A stretch of DNA of 5,774 bases from NCBI GenBank assembly GCA_014382645.1, contig JACNJI010000421.1, forward strand, positions 1-5,774, given 5' to 3'. This DNA comes from Verrucomicrobiota bacterium. Lineage in GTDB: Bacteria > Verrucomicrobiota > Verrucomicrobiia > Opitutales > Seribacteraceae. Each line of letters begins with the position of its first letter. Position 1 is the stretch's first letter. Both the position numbers and the translations under genes were made by a program. Below the pieces are notes generated by a model. It ran no database searches, had not been told where the DNA came from, and worked only from the letters and a program-made list of their open reading frames with translations. Shown here piece by piece: positions 1-5,774 of the stretch.

Positions 1-175
1 CACCGAATCTTCCGGTGAGGAGCAAACGATTCGCAAGGGGGTTGTAATCGTGGAGATTAATGGTCAGGTTGCTCGTGACGAAAAGGATGCCCGGATATAC
101 CTGCACCGAGGCCTAAATCGCTTCTATGTTTGGTTTAAGGGGAGATACAATTTTCTTCCCTATCGCATACCCTAA
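1..175 (+). CDS. C-terminal end of an unidentified protein, possibly PDZ-containing (5' truncated)
   Basis: The reading frame is open from base 2 and stops with TAA at 173-175, giving the last 57 residues of a protein that begins outside the window. The segment GVVIVEINGQVARDEKDA resembles the end of a PDZ domain as in HtrA-type proteases, where a 'GDVIxxINGxxV' strand is followed by a helix starting D/E-D-A/L. After it comes a basic and aromatic tail, RFYVWFKGRYNFLPYRIP. No catalytic residue lies in the visible part, so a protease cannot be claimed. The gene converges on metX-metW and the two stop codons overlap. The PDZ reading is an inference from one short pattern; another small beta-rich domain is possible. 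Confidence 0.55.
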   Translation, partial: TESSGEEQTIRKGVVIVEINGQVARDEKDARIYLHRGLNRFYVWFKGRYNFLPYRIP

Positions 176-2046
176 GTTCTTCCTACCTCATATATTGCCA
201 CTCCGGCAAGTAGGTTTGGGAGTACTCTACGATGGGTTTTCCAGTCTCCGCCTAGGCACACTCTCCTTCGGAGGACTAGGTTGCGGTCACGACAGAAATT
301 TTCGAAATCACGGATTGATACAGGGTTGACGGGGACCCGTTCGTGCCAAGCTTTGTCGTATACGTCGTTTATGATCCGACTACCGTTTAAGAAATAGTGG
401 AGGCGATTACGCCAATAACCGTGATTAACAAAACTTACCACCACTCGCTTGGCGACCTGTAGAGCTTTTTCAATGACTTCACATGGGTTGTTTAATTCTT
501 CCATGGTGCGGGAGAATACGATCCAGTCGAAAGAATCATCGGGAAAGCCTGCAAGAGTTTTGCGAACATCACCTTGATAGACCGGAGCAGCACGTGAGAC
601 ACAGCCAATGACTTTCTCAATATCAATGTCCACGCCTAAACCTCGTACTTGTTTGGTCTTGGCCAAGTGTTCCAGGAGAATTCCGCAACCGCACCCTAGG
701 TCAAGAACGCTTTCGCCTTGCCCAACCCATTCATCTATTACTCGAAAATCAGCTTCTTTTTTTGCTTCGGTACGAGTGATCGAATCGGGCCTAGAACTTT
801 GTCGATCAAGTTCTCTTTGGTCTGCTCCCTCCAGAAAAACTTGTACAAGACGATGGAATCGTTCGGATTTGAGCAAGAAGGAATCGTGACCGAAATCATG
901 ATCGATTTCAGCATAGGAAGCATCCTTACCCAAGCATTGGAGAGTTTCCACAATTTTACGATTTTGCTGGGGAGAGTATAGCCAGTCGGATGTAAAACCT
1001 ACAGCAAGAGTTCGGGCATTTATTCGACTGAGGGATTGTCCGAGTCCTCCCTCCTCCGCATGAAGATCGAATCGATCGAGAGCCTTGGTGAGATGCAGGT
1101 AGGTATTCGCGTCAAAGCGGTTTACGAAGGTCTTCCCCTGATGGCGTAGGTAGCTTTCAACCTCGAACTCAACCCCAAAGTGTGCCTCTACTGACTTCGT
1201 TGCGTTACCGTCTATTTGCTCGCGGCGAGATCTACCGAACTTTTGCTCCATGCCTTTGCCCGAAAGGTAAGTGATGTGAGCCATCATTCTGGCGATCGCG
1301 AGTCCGACCTCTGGACCCCCGTCGGACGGATAGTCTCCACCGTTCCATTCCGGATCGCCCTGGATGGCGGCTCGGCCAACGTCGTTAAAGGCGATGGTTT
1401 GGGCGTTGTGCCGTGTGGTTGCGGCGATCACTACGGTTCGTGCTACTAACTTTGGGCAGGACACTGCCCACTGCAACGCCTGCATCCCGCCCATACTGCC
1501 TCCTACGACGGCATAGAGCTTGTCGATGCCGAGATGTTTCACTAAACGCTTTTGGGCGAAAACCATATCGCCTATGGTTAACTCTGGAAATGAGATGCCG
1601 TAAGGTTTCCCCGTAGCTTCATTGAGCGAAGTTGGACCAGTGGAACCTTGGCATGCACCAAGGCAATTAGAGCAAATTACAAAGAATCGTTTTGTATCGA
1701 TGGCCTTGCCGGGACCTATCATTTGGTTCCACCAACCTGGTTTCGTGTCCCCTGGCGAATGAATCCCGGCACAATGATGGTCGCCCGTTAGGGCATGGCA
1801 TATAAGGATCGCATTTTCCTTGTTCGGAGCAAGCTCTCCATATGTTTCATAACGTAAATTGATGGATGCGATTTCCCCTCCTCTCTCAAATTGAAAGGGT
1901 GAGTCGTCACGAAATTCCTTTGGTTTTACAAGACCAACCTCGTCAACTCCGTTTAGGTAATCGGGATCTGTTTTGCTTCCGATCACTTTATGGGAAACTC
2001 CTTTGTTTTTCCTGCCTGTGCTTAACTTTATCTCAGCACAAGACAA
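172..2046 (-). CDS. metX-metW: Fused homoserine O-acyltransferase (MetX) - methionine biosynthesis protein MetW
   Basis: This 624-residue protein carries two usually separate methionine enzymes. Residues about 38-405 are a complete alpha/beta-hydrolase MetX, which transfers an acyl group (usually acetyl from acetyl-CoA) to homoserine in the cytoplasm. Visible landmarks are ICHALTGDHH (82-91), GACQGSTGPTS (130-140), the nucleophile elbow GGSMGGMQ with Ser184, Asp354 in GFTSDW and His387 in GHDSF, so the catalytic triad is intact. Residues about 432-624 match MetW, a class I methyltransferase-like fold: motif I VLDLGCGCG (447-455), GVDID (471-475), FPDDSFD (501-507) and SFVNHGYWRNRL (538-549). 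The longest frame uses TTG at 2044-2046, 8 bases after yebC. A GTG at 1984-1986 (residue 21) with AAAGGAG upstream is a good alternative giving 604 residues; no ATG precedes the conserved region. Acetyl versus succinyl specificity cannot be read here. MetX and MetW identity is secure; the exact start is not. Confidence 0.93.
   Translation of the reverse strand: MSCAEIKLSTGRKNKGVSHKVIGSKTDPDYLNGVDEVGLVKPKEFRDDSPFQFERGGEIASINLRYETYGELAPNKENAILICHALTGDHHCAGIHSPGDTKPGWWNQMIGPGKAIDTKRFFVICSNCLGACQGSTGPTSLNEATGKPYGISFPELTIGDMVFAQKRLVKHLGIDKLYAVVGGSMGGMQALQWAVSCPKLVARTVVIAATTRHNAQTIAFNDVGRAAIQGDPEWNGGDYPSDGGPEVGLAIARMMAHITYLSGKGMEQKFGRSRREQIDGNATKSVEAHFGVEFEVESYLRHQGKTFVNRFDANTYLHLTKALDRFDLHAEEGGLGQSLSRINARTLAVGFTSDWLYSPQQNRKIVETLQCLGKDASYAEIDHDFGHDSFLLKSERFHRLVQVFLEGADQRELDRQSSRPDSITRTEAKKEADFRVIDEWVGQGESVLDLGCGCGILLEHLAKTKQVRGLGVDIDIEKVIGCVSRAAPVYQGDVRKTLAGFPDDSFDWIVFSRTMEELNNPCEVIEKALQVAKRVVVSFVNHGYWRNRLHYFLNGSRIINDVYDKAWHERVPVNPVSIRDFENFCRDRNLVLRRRVCLGGDWKTHRRVLPNLLAGVAIYEVGRT
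1998..2004 (-). promoter_or_regulatory. Candidate ribosome binding site for the GTG start of metX-metW
   Basis: The minus strand reads AAAGGAG here, 11 bases upstream of an in-frame GTG (1984-1986). This is the best Shine-Dalgarno match near the 5' end of metX-metW, though the spacing is long. Starting there would leave 16 residues before the conserved VGLVKP segment, as is common for MetX. It competes with the TTG start at 2044-2046. Confidence 0.4.
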
Positions 2047-2054
2047 TGAGTTCT

Positions 2055-2813
2055 TTATCCTTGTGCTGCGTGGGTCTCAATCAAAGCTTCATCTATGTCA
2101 TAATTGCTGTGAACAGCCTTAACGTCTTCCAACTCGTCGAGGTTGTCAATTAGGCGCAATACTTGACGAGCTACGTTTTCGTCCGAGACGGCGATAAGGT
2201 TTTCCGGGAGATAGACGAGCTCTGCGGAATCGGTCTCAATTTGTGCAGCATTCAGTGCTTGTGTCAATTTATCGAATGCTCTCACTTCGGAAAGAACTTC
2301 GAAATGCTCCTCTTCGGCAACAACGTCATTCGCATCGTTTTCAAGAGCTAGTTCTGTGAGCGTATCTTCATCGACTTTGTCTTTGGCAATTAGGAATTGG
2401 CCTTTGCGCTTAAAGTTGTATGAGAGAGCACCTGTGCCCGCGAGGTTCCCTCCCCCTTTCCCTAGCGTACTCCTGACTTCAGATGCGGACCTGTTTTTAT
2501 TGTCTGTCGTAACTTCTATTATTAAGCCAACTCCTCCAGGAGCGTAGCCTTCGTAAAGCAGTTCTTCGATTATTGTGCCTTCAAGTTCGCCCGTACCCTT
2601 CTTGATCGCTCGCTCCACATTTTCTGCCGGCATGTTGGCTTGCTTGGCCTTTAGAATTAAAGTACGCAGGCGTGGGTTGCATTCAGCGTCCCCTCCGCCA
2701 TCACGTGCAGTTAGCATAAGTTCTTTACTGATAACGCTGAAAATCTTACCACGTTTGGCGTCTACAGTAGCCTTGTGCCTTTTGGTTGTAGCCCATTTGC
2801 TGTGCCCGGACAT
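2055..2813 (-). CDS. yebC: YebC/PmpR (TACO1) family protein
   Basis: The 252-residue protein is a full-length YebC. It opens with the family signature MSGHSKWAT, followed by DAKRGKIFSVISKEL (18-32), NPRLRTLILKAKQANMP (46-62), the charged stretch ERAIKKGTGELEG (67-79) and EGYAPGGVGLIIEVTTDNKN (88-107). The order fits a helical N-terminal domain (about 1-77) followed by the two mixed alpha/beta domains. Long annotated as a DNA-binding transcriptional regulator, the family (bacterial YebC and mitochondrial TACO1) is now linked to ribosomes that stall at proline-rich stretches. Which role applies here cannot be told from sequence. The ATG at 2811-2813 has AAGGG nine bases upstream. The gene lies 60 bases downstream of yidC and 8 bases upstream of metX-metW. 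Its usual neighbour elsewhere, ruvC, is not in the window. Confidence 0.95.
   Translation of the reverse strand: MSGHSKWATTKRHKATVDAKRGKIFSVISKELMLTARDGGGDAECNPRLRTLILKAKQANMPAENVERAIKKGTGELEGTIIEELLYEGYAPGGVGLIIEVTTDNKNRSASEVRSTLGKGGGNLAGTGALSYNFKRKGQFLIAKDKVDEDTLTELALENDANDVVAEEEHFEVLSEVRAFDKLTQALNAAQIETDSAELVYLPENLIAVSDENVARQVLRLIDNLDELEDVKAVHSNYDIDEALIETHAAQG
2058..2062 (-). promoter_or_regulatory. Candidate ribosome binding site for the TTG start of metX-metW
   Basis: The minus strand reads AAGGA inside the last codons of yebC, directly before its TAA stop and 11 bases ahead of the TTG at 2044-2046. Its position would couple translation of metX-metW to that of yebC. It is a weaker match than the downstream AAAGGAG site. 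Confidence 0.35.
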
Positions 2814-2822
2814 TTCTTTTTT

Positions 2823-2827
2823 CCCTT
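2823..2827 (-). promoter_or_regulatory. Ribosome binding site of yebC
   Basis: The minus strand reads AAGGG here, nine bases before the ATG of yebC, followed by an A-rich spacer. It is the clearest correctly spaced Shine-Dalgarno sequence in the gene cluster and supports the chosen yebC start. Confidence 0.6.
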
Positions 2828-2855
2828 AGTTAATTTCAGTCTCGTGGTTTTTACG

Positions 2856-2871
2856 ATGAAGCGGTCTTCAT
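2856..2871 (-). other. Small perfect hairpin between yidC and yebC
   Basis: The RNA strand can fold a six-pair stem, ATGAAG/CTTCAT, around a four-base loop ACCG, three bases after the yidC stop. No run of U follows (the next bases are CGTAAAAACC), so it does not look like an intrinsic terminator. It could protect the yidC 3' end or mark a processing site, or be chance, since six pairs is short. Confidence 0.3.
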
Positions 2872-2873
2872 AC

Positions 2874-4970
2874 TTATGATTTGTTGGCAAGTTTCTTCAA
2901 GAGAAATTCGTAGGCAGCCTCCAGCCGTTCTTTTTTCTGCATGGCCTCATCCTGCCGCTTGGCCCCAAGGTTACGCACTTTGTCGGGATGATATTTTTCC
3001 ATGAGCCTCCGATAAATTTCATCGATTTGTTTTTTGTTTAGCTTCCCGCGCAACTTTAAACCGAGAACTTGGCGATGTTGCCTTTCCTCTTCCTCGATGA
3101 AATCGGCATCAGGTTTTTTCTGACCGTCCTTTGCTTCATCTTTCGCTAAAATACTTCTTTCGGTTTCGATTTCTTTCGGAGATTTTCCCTTCTTCGTAAT
3201 GAGTGTCTGAATGATGCTCATTGTATTCTGCACTGTCCAATACAGTACCAGTGCAGAAGAAAAGAAATACAAAAACACGAGGAACATGAACGGCATCATT
3301 CGCATCATCTTCGCGTTGATACGCTGAGAATCACTGGCATCAGGACCAAGTTGCATTGGTGTAAGCTTCATCTGAAACCACTGTGTGGCCAACATTACAA
3401 AGGGCAGAGCATTTATCGAAAATCCCGCAATGTCTGCGACATTGTCTTGCTCGGAAAGATCACTTACCCATAGAAAGCTTTGCCCGTACAGTTCGGCAGC
3501 CGAACGAAGCATATAAAACATTCCCAAGAAAATAGGCATCTGAACTAGGATAGGCCAGCAACCCGCAAATGGGTTGACCCCTTGTTCCTTGTAAAACTTC
3601 ATCATTTCCTGATTCATTTTCTGTGAATCTTTTTTGTGTTTTTCACGGAGTTTCGCCATTGGTTCCTGCAACGCCTGCATTCTTTTCTGGGATCGTGTGG
3701 CTTTTGCGGTAAGGGGCCACAGCACCAATTTAAGGAGGATGGTCAGGAAGATAATCGCTAGGCCGAAGTTGCCTAGAATATCGTGCAACTTGTTTAGAAG
3801 CGAATTCATCGGCCCAGAAACCCACTCGAATGGGTTAAACTGCATAACCTTGTCCTGTTCCATTCCCAGTGAGGAGAGTATCATATAATCTTTTGGCCCT
3901 GCATAGTAGAAGCACTCGACGCTTCTGCTTTCTCCGGGAGGAATCTCTCCGAAAGGAATTGAGATGGATCCCGTTACTCCTTGTTCCCTATTGCTGGCGT
4001 TGCCGTCAGTACTACGCTCAATTGGCATTCCTCGAACAACAGCATCCTTTTCTTCCTTAGGCCGAAGAATGCTAACGAAAAACTGATTGTTCACTGAAGC
4101 CCATTTGGCTTCTGATAATTTTTTCCCCTCGTGAAGCCGGTCGTAGTCATCCATTTCGTTAACCTGAAAAAACTCTTCAGTTTCCCCGTCAATGCGACCA
4201 CTGCATTTAGCACACCCCCAGCCCGCCTCTTGAGGGTTTCCAGAATTGAAGTAGCCGACATGCATGTAAGACGCGGCTTGGTCGATGAAATTAAATTTTC
4301 GGGGTATAGGGAATGCCGAACCTATGCCGAACCTAATCCTATCGAGCTTTAGGCTCGAGTCACCTCTGTTAATCACGGTTGTTCTATGCCTAATCACATA
4401 GGTTTCGTTTGCTTCCCGGAAATATTCGCGACGAATCTCAACGTTGCCCGTGCGATTTAGGAAAGTCACCTTGGAATTCAAGTCTCCACTGGCGATTTCG
4501 TAAGCTCTCGAATCGTAGCCTGGTAATGGGTTGTCCAGAGGGTCGCCGTCATGGTTTTCGAACGACATGCTAAATGCATTACCTTCAATGCCTTTGCCAT
4601 TATCATTCGTAGAGAATATCATGTCATAGCTTTTTTTGAGGCGTTCTGCCTCTTCCAGATGTACCGCACTGATGGCTCCGCCCAGAGTAGTGAATTCAAA
4701 AGAAGAGCTATCGCCGACAAGTCCCTCATATGTTTTAACCTCTTGAGGAATCTTCGCAGAAAGAGGTGATGCGTTGGCATCCGATCGCATTCCGCCGTCC
4801 GCGACATCAATTATGTTGGGTGCTGTATAATTACCATCGCTCTGATCTTGGCGTGAGCTCGTATCATGCCGCTGGTTTTCTTCCGCGTTTTCCTGCTGTA
4901 CTTTTGCCTGCTCCATATAAAGGTAAGCAGCGGATAGGATTAGGCTGAAGCCAATGAGGTAGTTTTTCAT
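2874..4970 (-). CDS. yidC: Membrane protein insertase YidC with a C-terminal J-domain
   Basis: This 698-residue protein inserts and folds inner-membrane proteins, alone or with SecYEG. Residues 1-19 are the N-terminal membrane anchor. About 22-395 form the periplasmic P1 domain, which contains an unusual CAKC pair (Cys253, Cys256). The conserved insertase core follows: a membrane segment at about 397-420 ending LVLWPLT, a cytoplasmic helical hairpin (about 422-465) ending EQGVNPFAGCWP, then segments at about 471-490, 517-533 and 556-590 with SSALVLYWTVQN. Lys414 sits where E. coli has the groove arginine Arg366, a conservative change. Residues 591-631 are a charged linker, and about 632-696 match a J-domain: VLGL, a basic helix with YRRLMEKYHPDK (HPD 661-663) and a third helix ending AAYEFLLKK. 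E. coli YidC has 548 residues and no such domain. The ATG overlaps the rnpA stop as ATGA, with no separate ribosome binding site, which suggests translational coupling. Insertase identity is secure; DnaK recruitment is inference. Confidence 0.95.
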   Translation of the reverse strand: MKNYLIGFSLILSAAYLYMEQAKVQQENAEENQRHDTSSRQDQSDGNYTAPNIIDVADGGMRSDANASPLSAKIPQEVKTYEGLVGDSSSFEFTTLGGAISAVHLEEAERLKKSYDMIFSTNDNGKGIEGNAFSMSFENHDGDPLDNPLPGYDSRAYEIASGDLNSKVTFLNRTGNVEIRREYFREANETYVIRHRTTVINRGDSSLKLDRIRFGIGSAFPIPRKFNFIDQAASYMHVGYFNSGNPQEAGWGCAKCSGRIDGETEEFFQVNEMDDYDRLHEGKKLSEAKWASVNNQFFVSILRPKEEKDAVVRGMPIERSTDGNASNREQGVTGSISIPFGEIPPGESRSVECFYYAGPKDYMILSSLGMEQDKVMQFNPFEWVSGPMNSLLNKLHDILGNFGLAIIFLTILLKLVLWPLTAKATRSQKRMQALQEPMAKLREKHKKDSQKMNQEMMKFYKEQGVNPFAGCWPILVQMPIFLGMFYMLRSAAELYGQSFLWVSDLSEQDNVADIAGFSINALPFVMLATQWFQMKLTPMQLGPDASDSQRINAKMMRMMPFMFLVFLYFFSSALVLYWTVQNTMSIIQTLITKKGKSPKEIETERSILAKDEAKDGQKKPDADFIEEEERQHRQVLGLKLRGKLNKKQIDEIYRRLMEKYHPDKVRNLGAKRQDEAMQKKERLEAAYEFLLKKLANKS
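2883..3077 (-). other. J-domain coding segment fused in frame to yidC
   Basis: This is the part of yidC for residues about 632-696. Helix I carries VLGL, helix II IDEIYRRLMEKY is basic as expected for the DnaK-contacting face, and the HPD tripeptide is encoded at 2982-2990. Helix III is longer than in classical DnaJ, and the spacing DK-x3-LG before it recalls the C-terminal J-domain of the membrane co-chaperone DjlA. No zinc-finger or substrate-binding DnaJ regions accompany it. The segment is continuous with the insertase frame, so no frameshift is needed to explain the fusion. Confidence 0.85.
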
Positions 4971-5324
4971 CTGTCGGTTTTAAAGCGTTTGCATGTCTGT
5001 AGAAAATCCGACTCAAGCATCGAATAGGGTTGCGAAAAAAAAGTTGAGTGCGGAATTACTACCAAATCGCTTCTCTCGGGCAAAATTTCTTTATGATTCC
5101 TGAACAACTCTCTAAAGACTCTTTTAGCTCGGTTGCGCTTGACGGCGTTTCCTAGCCGTCTTGTTACAATTATTCCGATCCTTCTTTCAGCCGTTGGTCT
5201 TTCGTCGTCAATAAGAAGTTGCGCCAAGAAATGATTCGTGCGTACACGCTTGCCTTTCTGTTTAACGGTTTGGAATTCTTCACGCTTTCTTATGCGGCTT
5301 TTAGACTTGAAGCCAAAACCGCAA
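4967..5324 (-). CDS. rnpA: Ribonuclease P protein component RnpA (5' end uncertain, possible one-base frameshift)
   Basis: RnpA is the protein subunit of RNase P, which cuts the 5' leader from precursor tRNA. The body is clear: RRIGIIVTRRLGNAVKRNRAKRVFREL contains the family's RNR signature, followed by DLVVIPH. The only in-frame ATG, GTG or TTG is the TTG at 5225-5227, which would give 86 residues and lose the N-terminus. Yet the same frame upstream encodes RIRKREEFQTVKQKGKRVR, a typical RnpA beginning, back to a stop at 5396-5398 without any ATG, GTG, TTG or CTG. If the TTTT run at 5315-5318 (minus strand) were TTT, a TTG at 5322-5324 would start MRFGFKSKSRIRKREEF and yield about 118 residues, the normal family length. 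The coordinates given follow that reading. Rare in-frame starts (ATT 5348-5350, ATA 5291-5293) are the alternative. The stop overlaps the yidC start, and yidD is absent between them. Confidence 0.85.
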
Positions 5325-5358
5325 CCGTTGACTGATTTTTGCCTTAAAATAGCAACAT

Positions 5359-5514
5359 CTAGCGGAAGCGACGTGCCACAGAAGCAGTTAAACGCTTACG
5401 CCCTTTACGCCGCCGATTCCTTAGGATATTTCGGCCCGCGCTCGTACTGTTGCGTTTGCGAAACCCGCACTTACGAGCTCTGCGCACTTTAGACGGATTA
5501 TATGTCGGTTTCAT
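5359..5514 (-). CDS. rpmH: 50S ribosomal protein L34
   Basis: The frame encodes 51 residues beginning [20 protein letters not shown] and ending in the family hallmark GRKRLTAS followed by VARRFR. L34 is a small, very basic protein of the large ribosomal subunit, usually 44-50 residues, so this is full length with a slightly long C-terminus. The start ATG is at 5512-5514 and the stop TAG at 5359-5361. No Shine-Dalgarno sequence is visible in the short leader. It is the first gene of the rpmH-rnpA-yidC arrangement conserved across bacteria, and a sigma70-like promoter lies just upstream. Residue pattern and gene order agree, so the call is secure. Confidence 0.96.
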
Positions 5515-5542
5515 TGGTCGTAGGATTTATTGAAAACGATCC

Positions 5543-5570
5543 ATCAAAGCTTGTTTCTGCATAAAGTCAA
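5543..5570 (-). promoter_or_regulatory. Sigma70-like promoter for rpmH and probably the whole minus-strand cluster
   Basis: The minus strand has a -35 box TTGACT (5565-5570; five of six matches to TTGACA) and a -10 box TTTGAT (5543-5548; four of six to TATAAT), separated by 16 bases. Transcription would start near 5536, leaving a leader of about 20 bases before the rpmH ATG. No comparable promoter was seen ahead of the other minus-strand genes, so it may drive all five. Confidence 0.55.
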
Positions 5571-5671
5571 ATCTTCGCTATGCAAAAAACTCGCTTGCCC
5601 CAAGTTGGAAAAGGGCGCGAGATGCTCAAAAAGCGATTCAATAACATTAAAAACCTCACAAACTTCCTCTT

Positions 5672-5774
5672 ATGAAAGAAAACTCACCCTCCGACAAAAC
5701 TCATGCTTGGGGACGCAGGTCTTTTCTCGCCGCTGCGGCTTCTAGCTTGGGAACTGCAGTTTGTATGGCAAGAG
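5672..5774 (+). CDS. N-terminus of a Tat-exported protein (3' truncated)
   Basis: The frame opens at ATG 5672-5674 and stays open for 34 codons to the window edge. The peptide begins MKENSPSDKTHAWGRRSFLA and continues AAASSLGTAV. A polar stretch, the twin-arginine motif GRRSFLA and an alanine-rich hydrophobic core form a typical Tat signal peptide, so the mature protein is probably exported folded, often with a bound cofactor. No lipoprotein cysteine in proper context is seen (Cys31 is preceded by TAV). The enzyme itself lies outside the window, so its function is unknown. It is divergent from rpmH. No clear Shine-Dalgarno sequence or promoter was found for it in the 157-base intergenic region. 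Confidence 0.7.
   Translation, partial: MKENSPSDKTHAWGRRSFLAAAASSLGTAVCMAR

Follow-up and report, generated by a model that had tools for sequence, protein, structure and literature searches.

The membrane protein insertase YidC of a Verrucomicrobiota bacterium carries a J-domain at its C-terminal end. Its gene lies in a window of 5,774 nucleotides, the whole stretch of DNA analysed here (contig JACNJI010000421.1 of assembly GCA_014382645.1, positions 1 to 5,774), where yidC occupies positions 2874..4970 of the minus strand as a single uninterrupted open reading frame of 698 amino acids, identified by profile matches. The fusion had been proposed in an earlier note made from the sequence alone, and is confirmed. 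With moderate confidence, we favour the view that this tail began as a DjlA-type recruiter of Hsp70 and is now becoming a J-like docking module of the kind represented by mitochondrial Pam16.

Insertase and J-domain in one chain

The insertase part is identified by Pfam model 60KD_IMP (PF02096) across residues 402-594 (3189..3767 on the minus strand, as are all features of yidC given below; 197 bits, with the cut-off at 35) and by NCBIfam model TIGR03592 (210 bits against 84.3). The last strongly hydrophobic segment spans residues 558-576, so that the tail lies after the membrane part of the protein, where the earlier note had put it. The C-terminus of YidC is cytosolic in the known topology of the family, which places the tail where nascent membrane proteins arrive. 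In its insertase core and periplasmic domain the window protein resembles other YidC/Oxa1/Alb3 insertases, but it ends in a J-domain instead of a basic stretch.

A charged linker (residues 599-628; 3087..3176) leads into the J-domain tail (residues 629-698; 2877..3086). The DnaJ profile PF00226 matches residues 638-692 with 27.9 bits in the full-length protein, just over its cut-off of 27.8, and reaches 32.3 bits (E 1.1e-7) when the tail is searched alone. The LGL and HPD motifs that had been noticed by eye are located at residues 636-638 and 661-663 (2982..2990) respectively. Helix II, described as basic, does carry positive charge, though weakly (+2 over 17 residues). Among the NCBIfam J models, ActJ and DjlA come nearest, which is consistent with the DjlA-like third helix of the earlier note; both fall far under their own cut-offs. 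An AlphaFold2 model of the tail predicts a J fold, with helices at positions 37-46, 56-69, 72-76 and 80-107. Its predicted local distance difference test scores are 79-89 across the J part and below 50 over most of the linker. The model matches structures of J-domains, HscB and Tim16, with Pam16/Tim16 as the top structural match. The window tail thus combines a profile match over the cut-off, the HPD motif and a predicted J fold. Three members of the same genus score about as high as the DnaJ cut-off and no higher (27.3-27.4 bits against 27.8), and one of them passes when its frame neighbours are included. Residue 656 of the window protein (3003-3005) is a leucine, whereas arginine or histidine stands there in 27/34 rows of the genus alignment; this leucine may be the reason that the window passes the cut-off with more ease than other members of its genus.

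The same tail recurs throughout the window's family (f1). Among 37 family genomes, 33 gave a YidC match and four gave none; 32 of the matches are tailed, and the remaining one ends at residue 480. Since the tail is shared by 32 family genomes, an assembly artefact or frame error is ruled out. The tail is also present in three public metagenome-assembled genomes at 89-91% identity. Their tails are those of G001, G003 and G004, and they are therefore probably the same genomes. A search with a profile of the tail recovered the fusion in 23 of 24 family genomes, the 24th, G006, having had no YidC match earlier.

Outside the family the fusion was not found. No J-domain was present in the 16 YidC ends read among 20 order-mates (18 with a YidC match). 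An apparent read-through from YidC into a J-domain in the order-mate G051 (match to residue 693) was rejected, as the YidC frame there ends in an 89-residue basic stretch. The tail profile found no YidC fusion in 199 other sampled genomes of the order; eight of these gave a match to a separate J-protein. In 387 sampled genomes of the phylum it matched in 16, where the window's own protein was the sole YidC. The survey is confined to the window's phylum, and the profile would miss a fusion to an unrelated J-domain. Source annotations of the YidC relatives, where they name the protein, call it YidC, with a DnaJ domain precomputed on 8/33 and 0/26 of them. The claim that no insertase of this form has been characterised agrees with our literature searches for YidC or Oxa1 with a J-domain, in which no title or abstract start describes such a fusion; most subscription journals lay outside their coverage.

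Lack of HPD and selection on the tail

Most relatives lack the key motif through which J-domains stimulate the Hsp70 DnaK. HPD is missing in 27/32 family tails and in all 26 relatives retrieved by an HPD-less query, and it is gone in two of the four family genera. Within the window's genus it is kept in 31/34 rows and missing in three. On the core tree the HPD state changed four times, and at least three of these changes are forced by supported branches. A single gain of the tail, with HPD present at the start, is supported by a tree. The core tree is a quick tree without bootstrap, which took 12 of 33 proteins from one search and left out L131 (no motif found) and L004-L006 (copies). A tree of J-domains included 7/30 DnaJ sequences over few columns.

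Of the 27 HPD-less tails, 23 were scanned against Pfam, and DnaJ was found in only two at E values up to 1 (best 0.0019); such tails are therefore nearly invisible to the Pfam DnaJ profile. When a profile is built from the HPD-less tails themselves, it finds structures of HscB (E 0.002) as well as a J-protein that stands alone (94%, E 1.1e-7), and the J fold of an HPD-less member is predicted to be intact. Tim16 was considered as the nearest fold of that model and rejected, being absent from its structural match list. Two alignments of tails were used: A4 holds 26/32, omitting near-copies (L091, L106, L108), L105 (X), and L110 and L112 (first codon read as M), while A5 holds 20/27 HPD-less tails, omitting the same six and L111.

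Ratios of nonsynonymous to synonymous substitution rates (dN/dS) were computed by a simple counting method for 14 pairs hand-picked among close relatives. Four pairs from the window's genus give 0.05, 0.05, 0.04 and 0.01 for the J part, 0.03-0.05 for the insertase core and 0.22-0.26 for the periplasmic domain. Purifying selection on the J part is thus as strong there as on the insertase core. In HPD-less lineages the J part gives 0.03-0.19 (9/10 pairs computable). Most pairs exceed the value of the core (0.01-0.04), and three of the eight pairs in which both were computable exceed that of the periplasmic domain. These values indicate that the domain is selectively kept with or without HPD, less strictly without.

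Such data bear on whether the J-domain is a fusion leftover, tolerated on a long tail and now decaying. The repeated changes of HPD state and the weaker constraint in HPD-less lineages would suit that explanation, as would a metagenome variant, P0036, whose tail end has diverged. We nevertheless regard decay as very improbable, given dN/dS of 0.01-0.19 in the 13 of 14 pairs that were computable, a near-constant tail length and the fold predicted to survive in the HPD-less member.

DnaK contact and candidate partners

DnaJ contacts DnaK through residues R22, K26, R27, K48 and K51 (excerpts of PMC8215388). At these places the window tail aligns D, R, R, E and E, so that two of the five are basic. 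The acidic residues are D650 at the R22 place (3021..3023), E681 at the K48 place (2928..2930) and E684 at the K51 place (2919..2921). Across the family, the R22 place is acidic in 29/32 tails and the K48 place in 26/32. In the same family, both places hold lysine in all 30 DnaJ sequences and in the 16 larger membrane J-proteins read, of 20. The tail of G009, which has HPD, retains lysine at the R22, K26 and K48 places. R167, E206, E217 and D477 are all still present in DnaK from a genus-mate, as read by eye. We read this as an Hsp70-binding face that was turned around before HPD was lost, judging from the aligned residues.

The genome of the window yielded a 348-amino-acid Hsp70-like frame and no DnaK in a genome search. 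DnaK matches at E 1e-160 or better occur in 34/42 family genomes, among them all four further genomes of the genus to which the window belongs; with DnaK present across the genus and most of the family, we take the gap to reflect an incomplete assembly (88% complete). A missing DnaK was also rejected as the cause of HPD loss, since the family genomes mostly have it.

In the species that keep HPD, the tail could still work as a true J-domain, bringing DnaK to the site of insertion and stimulating it there, so that one chain would unite insertase and co-chaperone. Its HPD motif, Pfam match and predicted fold all fit, as do the low dN/dS of the J part (0.01-0.05), the retention of HPD in most of the genus, the cytosolic side of the tail and DnaK in the other four genus genomes. 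Against it stand acidic residues at DnaK-contact places, the HPD-less family loci and genus rows, and the three genus-mates that score no better than about the DnaJ cut-off. We consider this explanation possible but rather unlikely. The earlier note had proposed DnaK recruitment by the tail; for most of the family this is not supported, HPD being absent from most relatives. For the window tail itself, the acids at the R22, K48 and K51 places make recruitment doubtful, the last of them telling little.

A separate J-protein matched the tail profile in all 24 family genomes searched. All 20 sequences read have HPD, and the 16 that were scored each show one or two hydrophobic segments, which predict a membrane location. 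This protein is the best candidate partner of the tail, and we infer that it may dock on the YidC tail. Smaller one-span J-proteins of about 109-119 amino acids occur in genus g3 (G009 contigs C8 and C55, with matches of equal score and length, and G006 contig C33; L212, L188), and are a possible source of the YidC tail. Four proteins of family f24 (L189-L192; 333-343 amino acids) have several hydrophobic segments and a C-terminal J-domain with HPD, a DjlA-like layout.

The window also holds rnpA (4967..5296) upstream and yebC (2055..2813) downstream of yidC, both on the minus strand, and the order rnpA-yidC-yebC recurs by eye in the order-mate G046. Further minus-strand genes are rpmH (5300-5520, about 50 amino acids and thus below the 60-amino-acid limit of the frame list, named by eye), upstream of rnpA, and a single 624-amino-acid frame at 172-2046 in which the homoserine acyltransferase MetX is fused to MetW; in G046 a 383-amino-acid MetX-like frame stands alone (by eye). 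A plus-strand gene start at 5672-5774, cut by the window end, encodes a product beginning with a twin-arginine-like GRRSFLAAAA (by eye).

A proposed docking module at the insertase

We favour, as stated, a tail in transition from Hsp70 recruiter to docking module. A DjlA-type tail with HPD would have joined YidC and at first recruited DnaK; its DnaK-facing side would then have become acidic, and HPD would later have been lost in two of the four genera while the fold was retained. The tail resembles DjlA- and ActJ-type J-proteins in its nearest models and in being part of a membrane protein, yet it is borne by an insertase, its DnaK-contact face is partly acidic and most of its relatives lack HPD. 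Because most relatives are without this key motif, the tail is likely a docking pad in this family rather than a normal chaperone switch.

Its closest working analogue is Pam16, an HPD-less J-like domain. Pam16 binds Pam18, the active J-protein, which depends on it to stay at the TIM23 translocase and whose action it tempers (excerpts of PMC12953747 and PMC5773037). Both are J-like domains at a membrane protein machine, although Pam16 is a separate subunit and the tail is part of the YidC chain. The likeness in lacking HPD holds for the 27 family relatives and not for the window tail. No common descent is claimed. Sec63 also carries a J-domain at a translocon (PMC13261788), but is a separate protein that faces the lumen of the endoplasmic reticulum and BiP.

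Two points weigh against reading the DnaK-contact face as turned around. At the K51 place the family's DnaJ carries serine, and an acid there therefore says little; at the K48 place, alanine stands in three of the four small one-span J-proteins that have HPD. Direct recruitment of DnaK is possible in HPD-bearing species, and some direct contact is possible in the window's species, as its tail still has HPD.

A further explanation sees the tail as a ribosome binder whose J ancestry is incidental. The C-terminal extensions of YidC in Rhodopirellula baltica and Oceanicaulis alexandrii, long like that of the window, bound Escherichia coli ribosomal proteins (excerpts of PMC8595059), and 31/32 family tails have a J part with net positive charge. 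Whole tails are only mildly charged, however, at -2 to +13 over 98-111 residues, compared with +3 to +19 in 15 YidC ends of 5-89 residues from order-mates outside the family, and this makes a ribosome-binding role less likely. The window tail is mildly basic (+8 over 106 residues), so the earlier note's analogy with ribosome-binding tails is weak. The J fold is also predicted to persist without HPD. Altogether, we judge this explanation improbable.

More tentatively, we speculate that the docking module and its candidate partner could form an independently evolved bacterial counterpart of Pam16-Pam18, in which the J-like domain of YidC docks a separate membrane J-protein with HPD and so controls the time and place of DnaK action on membrane proteins as they emerge. 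Every step would then be alive in one family: an active J-domain in genus g3, a half-converted one in the window's genus, and a purely J-like one in genera g2 and g4.

Through the fusion, a single chain connects the insertase with the Hsp70 system; the literature searched showed no such connection. The family also seems to capture a J-domain midway in its conversion to a J-like domain. If the partner J-protein is confirmed, bacteria would have built a Pam16-like arrangement independently, and the role of a J-like domain after losing Hsp70 stimulation would become testable.
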